A stretch of 41,526 nucleotides of DNA from Sulfurovum sp. GTDB taxonomy: Bacteria > Campylobacterota > Campylobacteria > Campylobacterales > Sulfurovaceae. The stretch spans positions 1 through 41,526 of the forward strand of contig JAMOTK010000033.1 of the NCBI GenBank assembly GCA_027062365.1, written 5' to 3'. The number at the start of each line of letters is the position of its first letter. The first letter of the stretch is position 1. Both the position numbers and the translations under genes were made by a program. Below the pieces are notes generated by a model. It saw only the letters and a list, made by a program, of their open reading frames with translations, ran no database searches and was not told where the DNA came from. Shown here piece by piece: positions 5,183 through 20,166 of this stretch.

Positions 5183-6270
5183 TGATGCGATATAGTGCTA
5201 CCCATTTTACCTGCCCTTCGTGTGGAGGGTCTCAAAAGTTTTCACCCACAACAGGGAAGCTAAGGTGTGAGTTTTGTGAGTCAGAGCGTAGTATTACGCA
5301 TGAGGATACACATATTATTGCTCATGATTATCATCAAAAGCTCAATAGTCTTGACCCTAAACATGATAATAGTATAGACAAAGAAGTCAACTGTAAAAAA
5401 TGTGGAGGGGTCTTTAGCCTGACCCCCTTTGTCTTTGCTAGTCATTGTCCTTACTGTAAGATACCTGCTTTAATCCAATGTATCAAAGAGATTCATCCTG
5501 AGTCTTTACTTCCTTTTACTATTGACAAAAAAGATGCCCAATCACGATTTAAAAAATGGGCAGGGTCTCGTTGGTTTGCACCCACTTCTTTTACAAAGTA
5601 TCTCAAAAATGACCATCAACTCAAAGGGTATTATCTACCTCATTGGAGTTATGATAGTGATACCATCTCTGAGTATGAAGGAAAAAGAGGCGATGCTTAT
5701 TATGTTACGGTGACTAGAACTGTGAGCGACAAAGAGGGTAACCAACGTCAAGAAAATGTACAAGAGAGACGTATCAGATGGACGCATGTTTCTGGTGTGG
5801 TGCATATAGATTTTGATGATGTCACAGTGGGTGCTAGTAAAACACTCCCCCACTCTCTTTTGGATACGTTAGAGCCATGGAATTGTCAGAAGTTAGAAGC
5901 CTTTGAAAAAGAGTACATTGCTGGATTTGAAGCCCAAGAGTATGAGATAGGATTAAAAAGTGGCTTTGATTTTGCCAAGACCAAAATGTCTTATAAGATA
6001 AAGCGTGATATACGCCAAGACATTGGAGGGGATGAACAACAAATTCATCATGTCAATACCCAATACAATGACTTAAAATATAAAAATGTCCTCTTTCCAC
6101 TATGGATATCTTCGTTTAAATGGAAAGAAAAAATCTACGATTATGCCATCAATGCCCAAACAGGTAAGGTTGTAGGAGAACGCCCTTATAGTATTGTCAA
6201 AATTGCTTTTGCTGTTGTCACAGTCCTTGCTATTGTTGCTGGATTTTTCTATTTTCAAAATACAAAATAG
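5182..6270 (+). CDS. Double zinc-ribbon protein with C-terminal membrane anchor (YdjG/TFIIB-ribbon type)
   Basis: The 362-aa product has two Cys4 zinc ribbons: CPSC with CEFC (within residues 1-32), and CKKC with CPYC (about 72-95). A beta-rich middle region follows, containing a conserved LPHWSYDSDT-like segment. A hydrophobic helix sits at the extreme C-terminus (about 338-358). This architecture is known from proteins encoded next to YdjI-type SPFH proteins, where it is thought to act at the membrane, not in transcription, despite the TFIIB-like ribbons. The start overlaps the SPFH stop (TAATG), so the two are co-translated. It is the last gene of the operon, and comF lies convergent 2 bp away. 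Confidence 0.8.
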   Translation: MMRYSATHFTCPSCGGSQKFSPTTGKLRCEFCESERSITHEDTHIIAHDYHQKLNSLDPKHDNSIDKEVNCKKCGGVFSLTPFVFASHCPYCKIPALIQCIKEIHPESLLPFTIDKKDAQSRFKKWAGSRWFAPTSFTKYLKNDHQLKGYYLPHWSYDSDTISEYEGKRGDAYYVTVTRTVSDKEGNQRQENVQERRIRWTHVSGVVHIDFDDVTVGASKTLPHSLLDTLEPWNCQKLEAFEKEYIAGFEAQEYEIGLKSGFDFAKTKMSYKIKRDIRQDIGGDEQQIHHVNTQYNDLKYKNVLFPLWISSFKWKEKIYDYAINAQTGKVVGERPYSIVKIAFAVVTVLAIVAGFFYFQNTK

Positions 6271-9081: not shown

Positions 9082-9488
9082 ATCATTTCTCTCTTATATT
9101 TTTTTAAAGTATAACATATTCTAAATATATTTGTTATCTATTTTGTTGCTCAATAGTGTTTTTAAATATATTTTTTAATCCACTATAATCATATATATAA
9201 TATTCACTGTTTTATTATTCTTAAATACTGTAGATTAGATTTATTTAGTACAAAAATACATTTACACTTTATAATAATTTTATCTTAAACAGTATGAAGC
9301 AATGCTAAAATAAGATATAAAAAATAATAGTGATGCTGTAGTGGCGTAAAAATATGTTATTAAGTAGTATTACTGAATTAAACCATAATTTTAACCTTTG
9401 ACGATGTGAAAGCTATCGTTTTCAATGAACTTTATATTTTATTGTTTAATTTAGAATAACTTATAAGACAATGAACAAAGGAGAAATA
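9082..9488. other. AT-rich 400-bp intergenic region, no gene seen
   Basis: No frame with a ribosome binding site and plausible composition was found on either strand. The stretch is very AT-rich and leads into the antitoxin-like fragment at 9489 (AACAAAGGAGAAA just before it). No tRNA cloverleaf or strong terminator hairpin is evident. Confidence 0.5.
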
Positions 9489-9527
9489 ATGCAAACCATA
9501 CAATTAGATATGAGTGATGATAAATGA
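9489..9527 (+). pseudogene. 5' remnant of a small antitoxin-like gene
   Basis: ATG at 9489 with a strong AAAGGAGAAA upstream encodes only MQTIQLDMSDDK before TGA. Both the leader (AACAAAGGAGAAA) and the peptide pattern (M-x-x-I-x-L-D-x-S-x-D) match the intact 73-aa gene at 11625. The parsimonious reading is a paralogue cut off when the restriction-modification genes arrived, though a functional 12-codon leader is not excluded. Confidence 0.4.
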
Positions 9528-9536
9528 GTATTTTAC

Positions 9537-10601
9537 ATGACTAAAAGTATGAAAGCCAATACCAACTTATTTGAAGAGCATAAATTCCCTCGTACGAGAT
9601 ATCAAGGGAGTAAATATAAGCTTCAAGAGTGGATTCAATCTCATTTGGAAACACTAGAATTTAATACGGCATTAGATGCTTTTTGTGGTACAAGTTCTAT
9701 TGCTTATATTCTTAAAGAAATGAATAAAACAGTTTATACCAATGATATATTAAAATGTAATTATGATATGTCACAAGCATTGATTACTAATAATAATGAG
9801 CAGATAACAAGAGAAGATTTTGAACAAATTCTTGTTAAAAAAGAATCTTATGATTATGCTTCTTTGATAGCCGATACCTTTGAAGATATTTATTTTTTAG
9901 AGGAAGAAAATACTTGGTTAGATATAGTGATACAAAATATTCATCAACTCAAAAATACCCATAAAAAATATATGTTTTTGTGGGCATTGTATCAATCTTG
10001 TATCTCCAAACGACCGTATAATCTATTTCATCGTAAAAACCTCTATGTAAGAACTTCTGATGTCAAACGAAATTTTGGCAATAAAACCACATGGGACAAA
10101 CCCTTTGAAGAACATTTTTATAAATTTATCAAAGAGATAAATAGGGCTATTTTTGATAATAAGCATACGCATAAAGCCTATAATAAAGATGTCTTTGACC
10201 TAGATATTCAAGTAGATTTAGTCTATTTGGATACGCCTTATATCCCACAAAAAGGCTCACTCACACATTATAGAGATTTTTATCATTTCTTAGATGGATT
10301 AAGTGATTATCACAATTGGCAAGAAAAGATAGATAGTTCTTCTAAACATAAAAAATTAAAATCTATCTATAATATTTGGGAAGATAAAAAAAATATTCTC
10401 AAAGGCTTTGAAGCCCTAATAAAAAAATTTAAAGAGAGTATCATCGTTATCTCTTATCGTGCTGATGGTATTCCTAGTATTGATGAAATTGTATCCATTT
10501 TAGAAAAAAATGCTAAAAAAGTAAGGGTTGAGATGATAGATTATAAATATGTACTTTCAAAGAAACAGAACTTAAAAGAAGTTTTGATTATAGGAGAATA
10601 A
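9537..10601 (+). CDS. D12-class (Dam-like) DNA adenine N6-methyltransferase
   Basis: The 354-aa product carries the AdoMet-binding motif I DAFCGTSS (about 47-54) after the TRYQGSKYKL segment typical of D12-class enzymes. Its catalytic motif IV is DTPY (232-235), a variant of DPPY. It stands one base upstream of an EcoRV-like endonuclease and is most simply its protecting methyltransferase, methylating adenine in the same site. It does not closely resemble M.EcoRV as I remember it, so the pair may have been assembled from different sources. The first good start is at 9537; a second ATG four codons downstream is possible. Neither has a strong ribosome binding site. Confidence 0.85.
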   Translation: MTKSMKANTNLFEEHKFPRTRYQGSKYKLQEWIQSHLETLEFNTALDAFCGTSSIAYILKEMNKTVYTNDILKCNYDMSQALITNNNEQITREDFEQILVKKESYDYASLIADTFEDIYFLEEENTWLDIVIQNIHQLKNTHKKYMFLWALYQSCISKRPYNLFHRKNLYVRTSDVKRNFGNKTTWDKPFEEHFYKFIKEINRAIFDNKHTHKAYNKDVFDLDIQVDLVYLDTPYIPQKGSLTHYRDFYHFLDGLSDYHNWQEKIDSSSKHKKLKSIYNIWEDKKNILKGFEALIKKFKESIIVISYRADGIPSIDEIVSILEKNAKKVRVEMIDYKYVLSKKQNLKEVLIIGE

Positions 10602-10602
10602 G

Positions 10603-11553
10603 ATGTCATTTGAAGAAAAGTTTAATGCATTCATTCCAGAACTTACCGAAGCACTGAGTGTACCTAAAGGTAGAGATTGGTCAGTTAAAGGGTTTATAGA
10701 TGTTCATCAAAATATTTATTCCATAAGTAATGATACCAAAGTAGTTTCAAAAATTATAGAATTGATGATTTTCCCCAAACTTTTAGAATTTGCACAAAGG
10801 CATGATTTAGAGTTAAAACTATCGCCCTATCAAAATTATTATCCCGATGTCACTTTTATAGACTCTACTGGTAAAAAATATGCTGTAGATTTGAAATCTA
10901 GTTATAAATCATCAAAAGACAAAATCAACGGAATGACATTGGGTGCATTTACAGGCTATTTTAGAAATAGAACTTCTTCAAAAAATACACTCTATCCTTA
11001 TGGTGACTATCATCAACATTATGTATTTGGCATTATCTACTCACGCACAGATATTACACAAATTGAAGAATATTTAGCTTCTTTGGATATAAATATTTCC
11101 ATTACAGTCAAAAAACTTTTTGTTGAGTATATCAATGAAAATAGTGATAGTAAATGGCAAAATATAATCCATAAAATAGCATTAAGCCAAAAAAATAGAG
11201 CTAAAATAGATAGCTTTATAATGAAAGAAACAGATATACATACGCTTGATAATTTTACACAAATTCAATCTGTAGTGAGAGACTTTGAGTTCTTTATTCA
11301 AGAAAAATGGAAAATAGCCACAGATAGAGCAGGAAGTGGAAACACCAAAAACATCGGTTCAGAACTAAATATACAAAGATTAAAATCAGGCGAAGGTCTC
11401 TTTCAAAGAAAATTTGGAATAGATGGTAAAAAAGTCTTTGATAATTATTGGATGAATTACGAAACCAAAAGCATGGCAAAAGATGCAGGTAGAGACAGTC
11501 CACACTTTAATAATATTGAGAGTTATTTGGAGTGGAAAAAGGGTTTTAAGTAA
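10603..11553 (+). CDS. Type II restriction endonuclease, EcoRV-like
   Basis: The 316-aa product follows EcoRV (245 aa) over most of its length. The active site is present: Glu53 (EcoRV E45), Asp82 in YPD (D74), and Asp96 and Lys98 in VDLK (D90, K92). The DNA-recognition loop AGSGNTKNIGS (243-253) is nearly identical to the EcoRV R-loop, and the Gln-rich loop before YPD is similar (YQNYYPD). TLGAFTGYFRN and NYWMNYE also align. Retention of the recognition loop predicts cleavage of GATATC. An extra ~50-60 residues lie between the two conserved blocks (about 150-220). ATAGGAG overlaps the end of the methyltransferase gene, so the pair is co-transcribed. Confidence 0.9.
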   Translation: MSFEEKFNAFIPELTEALSVPKGRDWSVKGFIDVHQNIYSISNDTKVVSKIIELMIFPKLLEFAQRHDLELKLSPYQNYYPDVTFIDSTGKKYAVDLKSSYKSSKDKINGMTLGAFTGYFRNRTSSKNTLYPYGDYHQHYVFGIIYSRTDITQIEEYLASLDINISITVKKLFVEYINENSDSKWQNIIHKIALSQKNRAKIDSFIMKETDIHTLDNFTQIQSVVRDFEFFIQEKWKIATDRAGSGNTKNIGSELNIQRLKSGEGLFQRKFGIDGKKVFDNYWMNYETKSMAKDAGRDSPHFNNIESYLEWKKGFK

Positions 11554-11624
11554 TCATCATATTAAGAAAAAGAACAAAAATTAAAAATATGTTATGATTA
11601 AACAATTAACAAAGGAGAAACACA

Positions 11625-11846
11625 ATGTATAGCATACGACTAGATATAAGTAATGATGTTTTTGATAAAGTGCTGTTTCTTTTAGAGAGTTTTCATAAAG
11701 ATAAAGTAAAGCTTCAAGTTGAAGAGTCTATTTCTATGGAAGATAAAACCTTTAATCCTAAAAACTTTTTTGCTGTGGGTGATAGTTCTAAATTGGAGAT
11801 AGATGAGTATTTGGATAGCAATAAAAAGGTGAATTCGTATTCTTAA
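11625..11846 (+). CDS. Small antitoxin-like protein, apparently without toxin
   Basis: The 73-aa product begins MYSIRLDISNDVFDKVLFLL, a beta-strand plus helix pattern seen in many short antitoxins of Campylobacterota. It continues with an acidic hinge (VEESISMED) and a tail ending LDSNKKVNSYS. It has a strong AAAGGAGAAA ribosome binding site. In such loci a RelE-type toxin gene usually follows, but here only 25 bp separate it from a convergent gene, so the antitoxin is an orphan or the toxin has been lost. The family assignment is by pattern only. Confidence 0.5.
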   Translation: MYSIRLDISNDVFDKVLFLLESFHKDKVKLQVEESISMEDKTFNPKNFFAVGDSSKLEIDEYLDSNKKVNSYS

Positions 11847-11871: not shown

Positions 11872-12468
11872 TTATTCTAATTTATCTAGTAAAGTAATCG
11901 AAGCTCTTAAACGAATCTCTTCATCATCGCTGTCAAGTAGTTTTTCTAAAACCTCTAATGCTTTCTTTTTTCCTTCATTAGAAGATATAGTTGGAGTAGA
12001 ATTTTTACTTTTTAGAAATACATCCATTTTTTCAGAATGTTGAGAGATATTTGATACTGTTTTCCTTGCTCCTGATAATGATTTTTGTATTGCTTTATCT
12101 AAACTAGTTTTTTCAATAGTTTTAAGAAACTCAACCCTAATCATATGAGGATTTCCTATTCCATCAATATCATTCTCCTTTCTATAGGTATAAAGAGTAA
12201 TGGTTTTAAAAACATGTAGAAAACCTTTTTTACTAATAGATGGAGTAAGCACAATCGAACCTTTAGGTATCTTAATAAATTGTTCTACTTGACTAATATT
12301 AATAGCACTTATATTAGGATAATTATGCTCTAAAATATCTTCTAATTCTTTTCTACTCTTATTTAATAAGTTTTGACCACAATGCCAACCGATACTAATA
12401 TCTCCATCTAAAAACTGCTTTTCTCTATTGATATTATGTGGTTTTGCTCTTAATATGTATAAATTCAT
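11872..12468 (-). CDS. Hypothetical protein with PUA/EVE-like N-terminal domain
   Basis: The 198-aa product starts MNLYILRAKPHNINR and continues with ISIGWHCGQNLL. This pattern recalls the PUA/EVE-like N-terminal modules found in Mrr-type restriction proteins and related modified-base readers. The middle has KIPKGSIVLTPS and a beta-rich stretch. The C-terminal ~45 residues form a helical, charged segment ending in a HEAT-like helix pair (DSDDEEIRLRASITLLDKLE). No nuclease motif is seen. It lies beside the EcoRV-like system, so a role in sensing or restricting DNA is conceivable, but this is inference. It has a normal ATG with AAAGGATT upstream. Confidence 0.5.
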   Translation of the reverse strand: MNLYILRAKPHNINREKQFLDGDISIGWHCGQNLLNKSRKELEDILEHNYPNISAINISQVEQFIKIPKGSIVLTPSISKKGFLHVFKTITLYTYRKENDIDGIGNPHMIRVEFLKTIEKTSLDKAIQKSLSGARKTVSNISQHSEKMDVFLKSKNSTPTISSNEGKKKALEVLEKLLDSDDEEIRLRASITLLDKLE

Positions 12469-12632: not shown

Positions 12633-14234
12633 ATGCCAACATTAAGCAAAACCACCCCACTACAAGACTTCATAAACCACAAAACAAACACAAATATGCA
12701 ATGTGGAAATTACTCCATAGACTTGCCCGACCTACAAGAGGGAGAGCAGTATCGTTTTCATTTTGATGCGACGGCTTGTGTGGGCTGTCATTGTTGTGAG
12801 GTGGCTTGTAATGAGCAGAATGCGAACCCTGATGATATAAAATGGCGACGCGTTGGGGAGATGGAGATGGGCGAATTTCCTGATACGCTTCAGCTTTTTA
12901 ACTCCATGTCTTGTAACCATTGTATTGAGCCTGAATGTCTCATCGGTTGTCCAACGGAGTCTTATATCAAGTTTGATAATGGTGTGGTGTGGCATGATGA
13001 CCCTAGCTGTATTGGTTGTCAATATTGTACTTGGAATTGCCCTTATGAAGTGCCTACTTTTAACAAAGAACGAGGGATTGTGACCAAGTGCCACATGTGT
13101 CATGACAAGCTTGAAGTAGGGCAAAGTCCTGCTTGTGTTCAGGCTTGTCCTTCTAATGCGATTGAGATTGAAGTCTTTAATGTCAAAGAATGGCTTGATG
13201 AAGATATGGCAAAAAATGGCATTGCACCTCATCTGCCTGATATTGAAATTACTAAGCCTACCACGCGTTATACTTTGCCCCCAATGGATGAAAATGCAGA
13301 AATTCGTGTAGCCGATGAGCATCTTCTCAAACCTGCCCATGCTGAACTGCCTTTGGTCTTTATGACGGTACTTACACAAGTAAGTTTAGGGGCATTTTTG
13401 GCTCTATTTTTAGGTCAAGTCTTGTTCTCTTTAGGCTTTAATCTACCTGAACCTACACTAATCATGGCGATGTTGGCATTTTTGCCCTCTGCTATTGGTT
13501 TGCCTTTGTCTGCTTTACATTTGGGTCGTCCTATTATGGCAATGATGGCAATGAAAAATTGGCGTACTTCGTGGCTGAGTCGTGAAGCGATTGCTTTGGG
13601 TGCGTTTACTGCGTTGGCTTCTGTAGTCGTAATAATGGTTTATTTAGATATTAAAGGCATCGCTCTTATCGCTGTAGAATCTCTTACACTCATGATTGGG
13701 ATTTACGGAATTTACGCACAATCCATGATATATCGCATCCGTGCTAGACCCTCATGGAACAGAAAGTCCACCACAAAACGCTTTTTTGGCTCATCCTATG
13801 TAGGCTTTTTACTCATCGCCACAGCACTACTCATAAGCAATGGAAGCCAAGGCGTGATGGTACTTTTAGCGATTACACTTTTAACAGGCATGGTGCAAGT
13901 ATTGGTCATTTGGGAAGAGATACTCTTTTACAAAAACTTAGACAAAGAAGACGCACTCTATTATCAATATAATAGAAGTAGAATATTACTCAATGAGCAT
14001 TTTGGCTTTATCAAAAGATTTAGGGTCTATTCTTTGATTACTTTTGCTTTAGCTTTGCCACTTTTGGCGATACTTTTTACGGCAAGTGGATTGATGAATT
14101 TGGCGATAATGACGCTAATATTGGCTACGATTGGTGCATTAGTGAGTGAACTAAGTGGGCGTTATTTATTTTATAGGACTGTTGTGCCTTTGGGATTGGC
14201 AGGGAACTTTTTTGCTGGGAATCAGAGGGGTTGA
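12633..14234 (+). CDS. Fused DmsB-DmsC-like iron-sulfur/membrane anchor subunit
   Basis: The 533-aa product joins two subunits of the DMSO-reductase family. Residues ~40-200 are a DmsB-type ferredoxin with sixteen cysteines in four clusters (CVGCHCCEVAC, CNHCIEPECLIGC, CIGCQYCTWNC, CHMCHDK...CVQAC). Residues ~235-533 are a DmsC-like anchor with about eight membrane helices. Such proteins pass electrons between the quinone pool and a molybdopterin subunit. No catalytic A subunit or chaperone is encoded nearby, so the partner is elsewhere or lost. The C-terminus NFFAGNQRG is encoded by the left copy of the repeat. The stop TGA falls within the -35 hexamer of the downstream promoter, suggesting that insertion replaced the original end of the gene. 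Confidence 0.85.
   Translation: MPTLSKTTPLQDFINHKTNTNMQCGNYSIDLPDLQEGEQYRFHFDATACVGCHCCEVACNEQNANPDDIKWRRVGEMEMGEFPDTLQLFNSMSCNHCIEPECLIGCPTESYIKFDNGVVWHDDPSCIGCQYCTWNCPYEVPTFNKERGIVTKCHMCHDKLEVGQSPACVQACPSNAIEIEVFNVKEWLDEDMAKNGIAPHLPDIEITKPTTRYTLPPMDENAEIRVADEHLLKPAHAELPLVFMTVLTQVSLGAFLALFLGQVLFSLGFNLPEPTLIMAMLAFLPSAIGLPLSALHLGRPIMAMMAMKNWRTSWLSREAIALGAFTALASVVVIMVYLDIKGIALIAVESLTLMIGIYGIYAQSMIYRIRARPSWNRKSTTKRFFGSSYVGFLLIATALLISNGSQGVMVLLAITLLTGMVQVLVIWEEILFYKNLDKEDALYYQYNRSRILLNEHFGFIKRFRVYSLITFALALPLLAILFTASGLMNLAIMTLILATIGALVSELSGRYLFYRTVVPLGLAGNFFAGNQRG
14207..14228 (+). repeat. Direct repeat copy 1 (22 bp) at the 3' end of dmsBC
   Basis: C, six T, then GCTGGGAATCAGAGG. The identical 22 bp recur at 20194-20215 and a diverged copy lies at 16465-16484. 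Here the repeat is coding (NFFAGNQR of DmsBC). The arrangement resembles attachment-site duplications made when elements integrate at the 3' end of a gene. Confidence 0.8.
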
Positions 14235-14290: not shown

Positions 14291-14569
14291 ATGTTAGCCA
14301 CAATACATAGTAAAGATACACGCATAGAGTTTAAAACTTCTAGTGAGATAAAAGCCCTTTTACAAAGGGGTGCGAATGCTTTGGGTATGGATTTGAGTTC
14401 ATTTCTTATCTCTACAGCCACACAAAGAGCCAAAGATGTGATACTAGAAGAGAAAATGCTTAGACTTATTACGCAAGAGTGGGAAAGTTTTGAAAAAGCA
14501 TTAAAGCATCCAAAACCTGCTACAAAAGAACTCAAAGCACTAATGAATATGAAAGGCTTTGATGCCTAA
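14291..14569 (+). CDS. DUF1778/TacA-like ribbon-helix-helix antitoxin
   Basis: The 92-aa product has an N-terminal ribbon-helix-helix pattern (RIEFKTSSEIKALLQRGANALGMDLSSFL), typical of DUF1778 antitoxins that bind DNA and partner GNAT toxins. A C-terminal helical tail would neutralise the toxin. The gene is preceded by AAAGGATA and overlaps the toxin start by 8 bp, so expression is coupled. Autorepression at the consensus promoter upstream is expected from the family. Confidence 0.9.
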   Translation: MLATIHSKDTRIEFKTSSEIKALLQRGANALGMDLSSFLISTATQRAKDVILEEKMLRLITQEWESFEKALKHPKPATKELKALMNMKGFDA

Positions 14570-15077
14570 ATTGAGACTTGTGACCTTTGATATTTCTATG
14601 ACTTACAAAGGATTAAAAAACTTTAATTGTGGCAATAGCATGATAAATACTTTTGTCTATAAGTCACTTAAAAAGCGTGTAAAAAAGCATTTTAGCCAAG
14701 CCTATGTCTTGCTAGATGAGAAAGAAAAGTTTGTAGGGTTTTATACCCTTGATACCTTTTCTATCACAAGAGAAATATTTGCGTTAGAAGATAGACCAAG
14801 TAGCCTACCTCCTATTGTTCCTGTGATAAAATTAGGTATGCTAGGCGTAGATATTTCTTTGCAAAATCAAGGTGTAGGGAAAAGACTGATTAGAGATGCT
14901 ATATTAAAAGTCGTTGCCATATCTAAACTTGCAGGGTGTGCAGGACTTTATCTATTGGCAGAAAAAGAAGCCATCATTTTTTATAAAAGTTTAGGGTTTG
15001 TTGCTATAAATCATAGTGAACCTTTGGCTATGTTTTTGAGTATAGATTCTATTTTGGAGAGTGTGGGTGAAGTGTAA
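14562..15077 (+). CDS. GNAT acetyltransferase toxin (TacT-like)
   Basis: The 171-aa product has the GNAT fold. The acetyl-CoA pyrophosphate loop is QNQGVGKRL (motif A, about 103-111), the LGMLGVD strand precedes it, and FYKSLGF near residue 140 carries the conserved tyrosine. Paired with a DUF1778 antitoxin, it should acetylate the amino group of aminoacyl-tRNAs and stop translation, as TacT and AtaT do. The ATG at 14562 lies inside the last codons of the antitoxin gene. A TTG one codon upstream is a less likely start. Confidence 0.9.
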   Translation: MPKLRLVTFDISMTYKGLKNFNCGNSMINTFVYKSLKKRVKKHFSQAYVLLDEKEKFVGFYTLDTFSITREIFALEDRPSSLPPIVPVIKLGMLGVDISLQNQGVGKRLIRDAILKVVAISKLAGCAGLYLLAEKEAIIFYKSLGFVAINHSEPLAMFLSIDSILESVGEV

Positions 15078-15086
15078 GATATAAAT

Positions 15087-15115
15087 TTGTATTTATTGGC
15101 TAAATAAGATACAAT
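15087..15115 (+). promoter_or_regulatory. Promoter and dyad upstream of the RHH-PIN module
   Basis: TTGTAT (15087-15092), 17 bp, TACAAT (15110-15115). TAGT-TACAT-ACTA at 15115-15127 is a small dyad overlapping the start of transcription and is a possible operator for the ribbon-helix-helix antitoxin. Confidence 0.55.
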
Positions 15116-15145
15116 AGTTACATACTAATTATACAAAGGATTTAT

Positions 15146-15418
15146 ATGATTTCATTAGTAGAAAAAACAAAATCAGAAAGAAAAACCTTTACTTTACCAA
15201 ACTACATCGTAAAAGAACTTGAACAATATGCAAAAAATTTTGGTAAAAAACAATCACAAGTTATAGCCCTAGCTTTAGAAGAGTTTTTAAGTAAAAAAAA
15301 CAATAAAGTAAGTCAACGCCTAAAAGCATTAGATGCTCTTACAGCCATTGCACCCAAAGGTTCACTAAAAGACTTAGACCTAAAAGCATCTCGTGTAAAA
15401 AAGACACTTGATGCATAA
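15146..15418 (+). CDS. Ribbon-helix-helix antitoxin of a PIN toxin pair
   Basis: The 90-aa product has RKTFTLPNYIVKELEQYAKNFGKKQSQVIALALEEF-type ribbon-helix-helix composition at residues 12-50. A basic C-terminal extension (KASRVKKTLDA) follows and should wrap the toxin. A clear AAAGGA lies upstream. Its 3' end overlaps the toxin gene by 8 bp in exactly the same way as in the preceding module, so the two modules share the architecture of promoter, RHH antitoxin and overlapping toxin. Confidence 0.8.
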   Translation: MISLVEKTKSERKTFTLPNYIVKELEQYAKNFGKKQSQVIALALEEFLSKKNNKVSQRLKALDALTAIAPKGSLKDLDLKASRVKKTLDA

Positions 15419-15848
15419 GAGAGTATATTTTGATACGAATGTCATTGTAGATTTATTTGATGTTGCTAGACCTTTTCATCAGGAGTCTTTACATGTCTTT
15501 AAAACTATTTTTGAAAATGAAGAGATAGATGTTTTTATCAATACGGATACAATAACAAATCTTTTTTATATTTTACGAAGTCATATTAAACTTTCTTTTG
15601 ATGATGCCATTGAAAAATTAGAATTTATCAAAAATAATTTTAACATCGTCTCTACTGAAATGATAGAAATAGACCAGACTATAGACTTATGTAAAAAACA
15701 TATTTTTAATGACTATGAAGATGGAATGCAATATATTTGTGCTTTAAAAGTAGAGTGTACGCTACTCATCACAAATAATGCAAAAGATTTTAAAAATGCT
15801 CAAATTAAAGTGATCACTAGTAAAGCATTGAGTGCTAAGTTAGCTTAG
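15411..15848 (+). CDS. PIN-domain toxin (VapC-like ribonuclease)
   Basis: The 145-aa product begins with the PIN motif VYFDTNVIVDLF (first catalytic Asp at residue 8) and ends with the acidic region IFNDYEDGMQY and LLITNNAKDF. PIN toxins are magnesium-dependent RNases that cleave tRNA or rRNA. The ATG at 15411 overlaps the antitoxin end; a TTG one codon upstream is also possible. The final part, IKVITSKALSAKL, is typical of PIN proteins, where the strand before it carries the last active-site residues. Confidence 0.85.
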   Translation: MHKRVYFDTNVIVDLFDVARPFHQESLHVFKTIFENEEIDVFINTDTITNLFYILRSHIKLSFDDAIEKLEFIKNNFNIVSTEMIEIDQTIDLCKKHIFNDYEDGMQYICALKVECTLLITNNAKDFKNAQIKVITSKALSAKLA

Positions 15849-16518: not shown

Positions 16519-17601
16519 ATGAATACTAAAAAAAATGAATTTCAAGATATTGTAGATGAAAGTGTTAATGTTTTATCTACTAATAATTTACAAGAAAATT
16601 TAGCTAAAATAATAGAAGATAGTACAGACTTAGATACACAGAAATCGAAACAGTTACTTAAAGACATCTCAGATACTATTGAATTGGTTGATAAAAATTA
16701 TAAAGATTTACAACAAGCTAAAAAAGATGGAAAGACCAGAACGCAATGGTTACAAAATAAAGTTGATATAATTGTTGAAGATTTATCAGATGAAGCCAAA
16801 ACAAAATTTATAGAAGAAGTAAAATCAAACCTTGATAGTGCCAATAATGATATGCTCGTAGAGGTATTTGATGAAACTGTTGATTTATCGAAAAAACTAC
16901 CAAATACTAAATATGAAGATTTAAATAAAAAAGTCATTATAGATGATTTTAATCGACAACTCAAAGACAACACAGTTTTAGGTGCTATAATTAACGAAGA
17001 TGGTAAATTTGAAATTGACACTAAACATAAAGAGATAAAAGCCGTCAAAGAATACTTTGAAGCAAAACTTGATTCTGATTATGATAAAGAGTTTAAAACA
17101 GCTGTTTCTGTTGCTACAGAGATAGCTAAAGATAAAGACTTGTTGCCACCCTCTTTAAAAGATAAAACTCCAGAAGAAATAAGTATGATAGTTGATAAAG
17201 GTGTAACTTCTGCAAAAGTTGCTTATAAATTGGCAAATGGTGAACTCAATGCTATGGACGCAATTGAGTATACTATAGATAGAAATACAGCTATCTTAAA
17301 TTCTGCAATAGTTACGGCTACTACAAAATATGGGGGTGCTATTGGTGGAAAAGTGGGTGGATTTATCGGTAGTATATTTGGACCAGCTGGAACTGTAACA
17401 GGTACAGCAATAGGTACAGTTGTTGGAAAATTTGCTGGAAATAAGATAGGTGGCTTAATAAATAAAGGTGTTAAAAAAGTAGCAAGTGTAGCAAAATCTG
17501 TTGCTAGTAGTGTTGTAAGTGGTGTTAAATCAGTAGTGAGTAGTGTAGGAAATGCAGTAAGTTCAGCTTGTAGTAGCGTAGCTTCATTTTTTGGATTTTA
17601 A
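16519..17601 (+). CDS. Glycine-zipper protein, uncharacterised (first gene of AAA+ cassette)
   Basis: The 360-aa product is not recognised. Residues 1-255 are acidic and helical, rich in K, D, E and L, with no signal peptide. Residues ~270-315 are a hydrophobic glycine zipper with repeated GxxxG/A (GGAIGGKVGGFIG, then GTAIGTVVGKFAG). The last 40 residues repeat VASSV/VSSV motifs and end CSSVASFFGF, an amphipathic pattern. Glycine zippers pack membrane helices and occur in channel- or pore-forming effectors, so membrane insertion is plausible but unproven. An AAGG sits before the ATG at 16519. Three co-directional genes follow within 90 bp in total, ending with an AAA+ ATPase that may remodel or hold this protein. 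Confidence 0.65.
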   Translation: MNTKKNEFQDIVDESVNVLSTNNLQENLAKIIEDSTDLDTQKSKQLLKDISDTIELVDKNYKDLQQAKKDGKTRTQWLQNKVDIIVEDLSDEAKTKFIEEVKSNLDSANNDMLVEVFDETVDLSKKLPNTKYEDLNKKVIIDDFNRQLKDNTVLGAIINEDGKFEIDTKHKEIKAVKEYFEAKLDSDYDKEFKTAVSVATEIAKDKDLLPPSLKDKTPEEISMIVDKGVTSAKVAYKLANGELNAMDAIEYTIDRNTAILNSAIVTATTKYGGAIGGKVGGFIGSIFGPAGTVTGTAIGTVVGKFAGNKIGGLINKGVKKVASVAKSVASSVVSGVKSVVSSVGNAVSSACSSVASFFGF

Positions 17602-17618
17602 AATAAGGATAAAATAAA

Positions 17619-18299
17619 ATGGCTAAAACAATAAAATTTAATCTTTTACTAGACGATAATCCAGTAAGAGATATAGAAAGTTTACAAAATAATTTTTGTA
17701 TAGATGATATACTTGAAGTGTATGAAAATGGTTTACTTCAAAAATGGCTAAAAGTTCGTGGATTTGATGCGTATTTAGAAAAAGTTAGAAACATTAACAA
17801 AGAGCATTCTATTATAGTTGAACTTATCAAAATATTTGATATACAAAAAGATGATGAAGCGATAAGAGAGAGTATCTATTCACTTGAATTTCAGGAAAAT
17901 AGAAAAAAATCTCTTGAAATTTTTGATACTAAAGATAATAATTTAAAAAATAGAATTGCTAAATATCATCAAGGGTATGAAGAACTTATAGAAGCTATTA
18001 TCGAACATAAAGAAAATATGGCATTTTTAAAAGTGGCTTCAAAAGAGATAAGTGATAAATATTTTAAACTATTTGAGCTTGATTATCTAAGAAGCTATAA
18101 TTTATATAAAAAAGAATCCCCATTTATGATATATGCGATTTTAATGAATAATAAATTATGTGATTTCTTTTTATACAATGATAAAATTAATGAAAGTTTA
18201 CATAAAAGTTTTATTTTAGATACACAGCCAAAAGTCAATAATTTATTTTATGATAATTTTGAAATATTTAAAAAATTGGAGGAGAAAGGAAATGATTAG
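17619..18299 (+). CDS. Uncharacterised protein (second gene of AAA+ cassette)
   Basis: The 226-aa product is soluble, acidic and mostly helical, with no signal or membrane segment. Its first ~55 residues have a distinctive pattern: IKFNLLLDDNPVRDIESL, then NF-IDDILEVYENGLLQKWL-VRGFD. I recall this as a recurring N-terminal module in otherwise unrelated bacterial proteins of unknown function, but I cannot name a family. The rest gives no motif. It starts 17 bp after the glycine-zipper gene, with AAGGATAAAA upstream, and overlaps the next gene by 8 bp. It is a candidate adaptor between the ATPase and its substrate. Confidence 0.6.
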   Translation: MAKTIKFNLLLDDNPVRDIESLQNNFCIDDILEVYENGLLQKWLKVRGFDAYLEKVRNINKEHSIIVELIKIFDIQKDDEAIRESIYSLEFQENRKKSLEIFDTKDNNLKNRIAKYHQGYEELIEAIIEHKENMAFLKVASKEISDKYFKLFELDYLRSYNLYKKESPFMIYAILMNNKLCDFFLYNDKINESLHKSFILDTQPKVNNLFYDNFEIFKKLEEKGND

Positions 18300-18681
18300 T
18301 TCAATCTTTGGAAATATAAACAGTATAAACACTAGCAATGAAATCTATGATTTATTAAATAAAAATAATGATGAAAATCCAGAAGATATTAGTTTAGAAA
18401 AGAATCTTAAAGAAAAAAAAGAAAAAGCTCTACAATTGGTAAAAGAAAAAACAGGATTAATAGAATTTAATGGTAAAACTGATGCTTACTGGAAAGATTT
18501 AGAAACATCAGATACAAAAGTGATGATTTTATCAATACCTTATGGTACATTTATAAGAAGTGCCAATGATTTAAAACAAGAGTTATCAGCAGAAGATGTA
18601 AATGGAAGTTTTTTAATTTTGAATGGTTTAGCTTACAAAAGTAATAATGACTATGAATCAATAGTATATATGAAAGTATAA
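18292..18681 (+). CDS. Uncharacterised small protein (third gene of AAA+ cassette)
   Basis: The product has 129 residues from the ATG at 18292, which has GGAGGAGAAAGG just upstream; an earlier in-frame start at 18250 lies well inside the previous gene. The N-terminal half is charged and helical (ISLEKNLKEKKEKALQLVKE). The C-terminal half looks like a small beta-rich domain (VMILSIPYGTFIRSANDL, then FLILNGLAYKS). No family is recognised. Its stop TAA is immediately followed by the ATPase start, which implies coupled translation and perhaps a fixed stoichiometry with the ATPase. Confidence 0.6.
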   Translation: MISSIFGNINSINTSNEIYDLLNKNNDENPEDISLEKNLKEKKEKALQLVKEKTGLIEFNGKTDAYWKDLETSDTKVMILSIPYGTFIRSANDLKQELSAEDVNGSFLILNGLAYKSNNDYESIVYMKV

Positions 18682-20166
18682 ATGATGAATATAGTAAATA
18701 AACTTTCATCTTATATAGAAGCGCTTAGACCTATACTTTATATACCTACTTTTGATTTTAACTCATTTGATAATATCATTAGAGATATTTCATCAAAGAG
18801 TAAAATTTATGAATATAATGAAGGTCTAGGATATGTGAATTTTGAAACCAAAAATCAAGAAACGGCATACTCTCTTGAAGAATTTTTAAATCTATTTTTA
18901 ACAGAACAAAATGAACCTATTTATTTGGTTTTAAAAGATGTGCATAACTTGATAGATAATCATAAGATAATCTCTCTTCTCAAATCAATAGCACTCAAAA
19001 CAATCTATGAAGAGAGTTATTATGTGACTATTTTTATCGTTTCTACTAAGTTAACTATACCTATTGAATTGGAAAAGCTTATCACAATTTATGATACACC
19101 TTTACCAAATAGAGCTAGAATTATAGCTACGATTAATGATTTCTCCGAAAGTATGGATATAACTATTGATACACATCTTATCAATGAATTGGCACTATCT
19201 TTAAAAGGATTTAGTGAATTTGAAATCATTCAGATTTTAAATCTTGCCTATCAAGAAAGTGGGAGTATTGAAAAAAAAGATACTCAACTTATACTTGAAG
19301 AGAAAGAACAGATTATCAAAAAATCTGGAATGATTGAGATACTTAACTTTAAAGAGAGTATTGATGATATTGGGGGGCTTGACAATTTAAAAGAGTGGTT
19401 AGATAATAAATCTAAAATCTTTAATAACCTTGAAAGTGCTTTAGAATTTGGTGTAGAAACACCTAGTGGTATGCTTATCGTTGGAATGCCAGGGTGTGGT
19501 AAAAGCTTGACAGCTAAGGCAACGGCTAGACTTTTTAATGTACCATTGCTTAGACTTGATATTGGAAAACTTCTAGGTAAATATGTCGGCGAAAGTGAAG
19601 AAAACATGCGAAGAGCCATAGGAATGGCAGAAGCAGTTAGCCCTTGTGTTCTTTGGATAGATGAGATAGAAAAAGCATTTGCAGGTGCTGGAGACACAGG
19701 AGGGAATGAAGTAACCACTAGACTTTTTGGGTATTTTCTAACTTGGATGCAAGAGAAAAGAAGTTCTGTTTTTGTGGTGGCAACCTCTAATGATATTTCA
19801 AACTTACCTCCAGAATTTTTAAGAAAAGGTAGATTTGATGAGATATTTTTTGTGGATTTCCCAAATGATGAAGAGAGAAAAAATATTATAGAGTTACACT
19901 TAAAAAGACGAAAAAAGTGGAATAAAAATATTGATACAATTAAGTTACTAAAAGAGACTGTAGGTTATAGTGGTGCAGATATAGAAGCAGTGATTAAAGA
20001 TACTATTGAAAAAGCTTTTATAAATGAGTGGAAAGATATACGAACTAAAAATATTTTAGATGAATTAGCAGATACGAAACCAATGTCAGTATCTTTAAAA
20101 GATAAAATTGAAAGTTTAAAAAAGACTTTGGATAAGCTTGATGTTAAAAATGCTAGTAAAATCTAA
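18682..20166 (+). CDS. AAA+ ATPase, Ycf46-like (fourth gene of cassette)
   Basis: The 494-aa product has the two-part Ycf46 layout. An N-terminal degenerate ATPase-like domain (about 1-205, starting ALRPILYIPTFDF) is followed by a classical AAA domain. That domain has Walker A GMPGCGKS (268-275), pore-loop region KYVGESE (300-306), Walker B with Asp327-Glu328 (WIDEIE), sensor-1 Asn370 and Arg fingers near 381/384. All catalytic residues are present. Such ATPases remodel proteins or complexes. The enzyme closes a four-gene operon with a glycine-zipper protein and two unknowns, and the right repeat copy follows 28 bp after its stop. It is probably the motor of the cassette; the substrate is unknown. 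Confidence 0.85.
   Translation: MMNIVNKLSSYIEALRPILYIPTFDFNSFDNIIRDISSKSKIYEYNEGLGYVNFETKNQETAYSLEEFLNLFLTEQNEPIYLVLKDVHNLIDNHKIISLLKSIALKTIYEESYYVTIFIVSTKLTIPIELEKLITIYDTPLPNRARIIATINDFSESMDITIDTHLINELALSLKGFSEFEIIQILNLAYQESGSIEKKDTQLILEEKEQIIKKSGMIEILNFKESIDDIGGLDNLKEWLDNKSKIFNNLESALEFGVETPSGMLIVGMPGCGKSLTAKATARLFNVPLLRLDIGKLLGKYVGESEENMRRAIGMAEAVSPCVLWIDEIEKAFAGAGDTGGNEVTTRLFGYFLTWMQEKRSSVFVVATSNDISNLPPEFLRKGRFDEIFFVDFPNDEERKNIIELHLKRRKKWNKNIDTIKLLKETVGYSGADIEAVIKDTIEKAFINEWKDIRTKNILDELADTKPMSVSLKDKIESLKKTLDKLDVKNASKI

Follow-up and report, generated by a model that had tools for sequence, protein, structure and literature searches.

An EcoRV-family nuclease of Sulfurovum is paired with a D12 methyltransferase from outside the M.EcoRV branch, a combination that recurs in Methanobacteriaceae

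The 41,526-nucleotide stretch of Sulfurovum sp. DNA analyzed here (contig JAMOTK010000033.1, referred to as the window) carries two adjoining, intact genes on the + strand, the arrangement expected of a Type IIP restriction-modification system. The first (9537-10601, 354 aa) encodes M, a predicted adenine-N6 methyltransferase of the D12 class (alpha group), and the second (10603-11553, 316 aa) encodes R, a restriction endonuclease of the EcoRV family. M lies outside the branch of D12 enzymes to which M.EcoRV belongs, and since its type is found in every Methanobacteriaceae locus in which we detected an EcoRV-family nuclease, the combination constitutes a second, recurrent pairing. Type II restriction-modification and the EcoRV nuclease family are both known; what is new is the recurrent alternative methyltransferase partner of the nuclease, and our literature search, which covered sources other than REBASE, found no paper describing an EcoRV-type nuclease with such a partner. 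EcoRV is a textbook nuclease whose partner methyltransferase has been taken as given, and its association with two well-separated D12 branches, in bacteria and in methanogens, amounts to a natural partner exchange that lets one ask whether both branches mark the same adenine.

By profile, catalytic and loop residues, and fold, R is an EcoRV-family nuclease. It matches the Pfam family Endonuc-EcoRV (PF09233) at 2.2e-87 (293 bits; cut-off 25) and, by sequence, the solved EcoRV chains in the PDB at 1.4e-30. The original prediction held that the catalytic residues and the recognition loop of EcoRV are preserved, and the family alignment bears this out. E53 (10759-10761), D82, and D96 with K98 (10888-10896) correspond to EcoRV E45, D74, D90, and K92, with D82 closing the QNYYPD segment equivalent to the Q-loop (EcoRV Q69-D74; 10831-10848), and K46, Q77, N78, and T112 match EcoRV K38, Q69, N70, and T106. 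The R-loop, the main major-groove recognition element (G244-S253, EcoRV 182-191; 11332-11361), reads GSGNTKNIGS in R and GSGNTTNIGS in EcoRV, the single change being T187 to K; R has G, T, and K where EcoRV has S112, R221, and R226. The predicted structure agrees with this assignment: an AlphaFold (AF2) model computed from the window protein and 17 homologues (pLDDT 88.9) fits the EcoRV-DNA complex 1az0 with a Z of 25.6 and an rmsd of 2.4 over 231 residues, and the next-best other family, SwaI, reaches a Z of 12.5.

The extra 50 to 60 residues that had been noticed in R correspond to an insert of 53 residues relative to its homologues (about aa 157-209; 11071-11229), which falls between EcoRV positions 145 and 149 and lies, in sequence, at a distance from both the catalytic and the base-reading loops. 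In the model, the insert and its flanks form four helices (149-205, pLDDT 73-86). Among about 60 EcoRV-family members examined, the insert is found elsewhere only in the nuclease of genome G174, which is 67% identical to R. Queried alone, it returned no convincing family and nothing significant in the PDB; a match to CcdA, at 17 bits, fell below the cut-off and was rejected. The insert perhaps contributes to subunit contacts or stability. Because the methanogen homologues of R lack it, the insert and the change of methyltransferase represent separate events.

M matches the D12 class profile PF02086 (1.8e-19, 70.9 bits; cut-off 22) and shares 19% identity with M.EcoRV in a multiple alignment. 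Its placement in another D12 subgroup than M.EcoRV, first proposed from the sequence, is upheld by a maximum-likelihood tree as well as by the partner survey described below. The tree separates, with a 100/100 split, the M.EcoRV types and the N-terminal domain of a double methyltransferase whose neighbor nuclease is AlwI (PF09491, 4e-115) from the side that holds M, which groups with the C-terminal domain of the same double enzyme. M retains the N-terminal SAM-site motif TRYQGSK of the motif X region (aa 20-26; 9594-9614), TRYxGSK being invariant in its subgroup, and a conserved motif I, LDAFCGT (aa 46-52; 9672-9692). Its motif IV (10230-10241) reads DTPY against the D12 consensus (D/N)PP(Y/F/W), which takes the form DPPY in M.EcoRV and other close relatives. 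Within the compared set of methyltransferases, DTPY is limited to the EcoRV-partnered enzymes of M's type, and all seven from Methanobacteriaceae have it. A search of the window's genome with PF02086 found no methyltransferase other than M, the M.EcoRV type included, which leaves M as the sole obvious guardian of the host DNA. Given that M is unrelated to M.EcoRV at branch level, its target does not follow from homology. An AlphaFold (AF2) model of M built from two sequences was poor (pLDDT 44) and was set aside.

We surveyed which methyltransferases adjoin EcoRV-family nucleases elsewhere. Within the phylum of the window, 23 of 397 sampled genomes hold such a nuclease, and the methyltransferases found beside these nucleases are of the M.EcoRV type, the window excepted. 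Two members of the window's own genus (G418 and G429) also have M.EcoRV-type systems. In G174 the R gene sits at the end of a contig. Plasmid-borne loci from Antarctobacter, Rhodothermus, and Geobacillus likewise have an M.EcoRV-type enzyme where one was detected, as do the viral contigs, where an alignment-based scan yielded 32 EcoRV-family loci and every detected methyltransferase was of that type. Close relatives of R were absent from viral contigs in a peptide search, and a search of phage GenBank entries gave no match. Some viral contigs (L147-L159, also L140-L142) encode short EcoRV-like nucleases of 197-212 aa, with no M.EcoRV-type or window-type methyltransferase detected in the fetched flanks; these are possibly solitary EcoRV-type nucleases of phages.

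In Methanobacteriaceae, 7 of 139 genomes (G430, G534, G550, G557, G558, G560, and G561) have an EcoRV-family nuclease, and all seven loci carry a window-type methyltransferase, 48-55% identical to M. The methyltransferase gene precedes the nuclease gene in the five intact loci, and the nuclease gene is broken in the other two. Whether the alternative pairing arose only once was tested with the nuclease tree: a clade of R with the methanogen nucleases is rejected (AU p 0.016), and R falls next to viral nucleases whose partners are of the M.EcoRV type (98/94). In the methyltransferase tree, M stands beside the methanogen enzymes, weakly (42/7). As the nuclease tree does not unite the window with the methanogens, the simplest reading is that the nuclease lineage would have exchanged its methyltransferase partner at least twice.

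GATATC had been predicted as the target of R, and residue conservation, the fold comparison, and a genome-wide avoidance of this hexamer all support it, the extreme avoidance being an independent line of target evidence that needs no wet-laboratory data. The window holds exactly four GATATC sites, at 6105, 9598, 30849, and 40869, the same four that the original prediction had listed as a minimum, against an expectation of 11.7 by dinucleotides and of 21 by a maximal-order Markov model. Across the whole genome (2.30 Mb) 180 sites were counted, and no other of 41 congeners has a lower density. Those three of the 41 that have an EcoRV-family gene show the three lowest densities (78, 172, and 203 per Mb, the median being 484), with a thin margin between the third and the fourth-lowest (206 per Mb); the difference between R-bearing and other congeners gives an exact Mann-Whitney p of 9e-5, calculated from rounded genome sizes and ignoring relatedness. 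In a 294-kb sample of stretches from the window's genome, with expectations drawn from pentamers and tetramers, GATATC occurs 11 times against 150 expected, the lowest z among all 4096 hexamers, and the resulting ratio of 0.07 is much deeper than in any other congener tested.

The R-less congener G399 has 58 sites against 53 expected, and the R-less G421 has a ratio of 0.47; the ratio in G559 is 0.47 as well. CTAG-containing palindromes (TCTAGA, GCTAGC) and CATATG are also low in the window's genome, and this, together with the value in the R-less G421, means that the depletion may in part go back further in time or be unspecific. In the methanogens with the M-R pair, no palindrome is more depleted than GATATC (0.38-0.40); with their R-less neighbors at 0.47-0.66, this supports the target weakly. 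Long-resident orthodox Type II systems typically go with avoidance of their sites, which can persist after the systems are gone (PMC4687349). The depletion supports GATATC as the target of R and points to past activity of the system. One of the four sites in the window lies within the M gene itself (9598-9603; AGA TAT CAA, codons of RYQ), which is odd for a genome purged of GATATC, and a Methanosphaera M gene has GATATC at the homologous RYQ codons (L030:3906-3911). This may reflect codon choice only; a self-regulatory site is possible.

Judged from sequence, we consider it very likely that the pair is a Type IIP operon in which R cuts unmodified GATATC and M methylates an adenine there, thereby shielding the host. 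M, translated first, would methylate an adenine in GATATC and protect the host DNA. R would be translated after it, its start being preceded and overlapped by an SD-like GGAG with which the M gene ends (TAGGAGAATAAGATG), and homodimeric R would then cleave unmodified GATATC, presumably leaving blunt ends as EcoRV does. No helix-turn-helix regulator gene was found at the locus, and the gene order, M then R, may take the place of one. The ATG of M has no clear ribosome-binding site of its own. We infer that the pair is active at present.

A variant of this arrangement, in which R cuts GATATC and the mark set by M differs from that of M.EcoRV, appears rather unlikely to us. M would in this case act on the inner adenine (GATm6ATC), or recognize GATATC as one instance of a broader or degenerate motif. 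Such a difference would suit the position of M with the C-terminal, and of M.EcoRV with the N-terminal, domain of the double methyltransferase, as the two domains of the FokI methylase reportedly each modify a different strand (Sugisaki 1989, as listed in PMC12898733). However, the AlwI target, GGATC, carries GATC on both strands, and the C-type domain may therefore likewise mark the A of GAT. The central A-T pairs, for their part, matter to EcoRV although it does not contact them directly (PMC4081073), which speaks for this variant. The exchange of partner would under this reading have been a change of mark as well. Less likely again is the fuller version, in which the EcoRV nuclease lineage on at least two occasions took on a guardian from a branch that methylates another base of GATATC or a broader motif, the insert being a lineage-specific adaptation; were it true, one and the same cutter would exist in nature alongside protective marks of two chemically different kinds.

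Comparably unlikely is that the pair is a recent arrival, possibly weakly active or silent, and that the depletion of GATATC is the relic of an older M.EcoRV-type system. Congeners do hold such systems (G418 and G429), the R-less G421 also avoids the site, remnants of lost systems have been documented (PMC4687349), and the GC content of M (0.28) and R (0.30) is lower than that of the genome sample (0.347). Against this reading stand the intact state of both genes, the absence of an M.EcoRV-type methyltransferase from the genome, and a depletion in the window's genome (G000) that far exceeds that of the other congeners tested. That the target of M is an unrelated motif and M no guardian, with R inactive or guarded by another methyltransferase, is highly improbable: the nearest relatives of M without an EcoRV-type partner do sit in differing contexts (clusters with a BrxC/D-like ATPase, and beside an AlwI-type nuclease), so that its branch serves various targets, but the seven Methanobacteriaceae loci keep this type beside an EcoRV-family nuclease, five of them intact and in M-R order, a persistence that makes little sense if M does not protect the site of R, and in the set compared DTPY is confined to these EcoRV-partnered enzymes.

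The BrxC/D-like clusters are worth a separate remark. Two of them (L067 in G163 and L068 in G251) consist of four genes, encoding a protein of ~371 aa, a BrxC/D-like ATPase, a ~580-aa protein without known family, and a D12 methyltransferase that is 40% identical to M; they may represent an undescribed BREX-like defense system.

In keeping with its low GC content, the M-R pair was probably acquired horizontally. It is bracketed by two copies of a diverged direct repeat of ~75 bp that comprises a leader, a ribosome-binding site, and a gene start (9448-9521 and 11579-11657; + strand; alignment score 78, against a maximum of 62 in 1000 shuffles). The small gene begun in the upstream copy stops after 12 codons (9490-9526), and the downstream copy leads into an intact ORF of 73 aa (11625-11846); the upstream copy may serve as the leader for M. 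The low GC and the bracketing repeat suggest that the pair was inserted or recombined at a small-gene locus. We infer this from the locus itself, as the comparison with congeners gave no empty site and no clean insertion boundary, the flanks not being syntenic and only a DmsC/Fer4 gene (12633-14234) being conserved beside the locus.

Several neighboring genes recall defense functions. Directly 3' of the pair, a 198-aa protein on the - strand (11872-12468) weakly matches the candidate phage-defense model PDC-S02 (1.2e-9). Toxin-antitoxin genes lie near the locus, namely a TacA-like antitoxin paired with a GNAT acetyltransferase and, after these, a PIN-domain protein (14291-15848). Further along, an AAA ATPase (18682-20166) matches PADLOC IetA (1.6e-29); beside it are three small proteins (16519-18681), one of which contains a glycine zipper, and together they possibly form a further defense cluster.

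Among known systems, that of EcoRV on plasmid pLG13 (L034) shares with the window the nuclease family and fold, the catalytic residues, the Q- and R-loops, and the predicted GATATC target. There, however, M is divergent from a regulator-R unit, with the regulator gene between the two, whereas in the window M and R follow each other on one strand and no regulator was found; the window also differs in the D12 branch of its methyltransferase and in the 53-aa insert of R. The EcoRV-family systems of the phylum, plasmids, and viral contigs have nucleases of the same family (about 27-45% identity over aligned parts), but their detected D12 methyltransferases are of the M.EcoRV type (48-65% identical to M.EcoRV) and, G174 excepted, their nucleases lack the insert. 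The Methanobacteriaceae systems resemble the window in methyltransferase type, in DTPY, and, in the five intact loci, in gene order, and differ from it in nucleases that have no insert and form no clade with R. The double D12 methyltransferase of the AlwI-type system (G235, L070), finally, has its C-terminal domain in the branch of M, but this is fused to an N-terminal domain from the M.EcoRV side, and its partner is a PF09491 AlwI nuclease with an asymmetric site.
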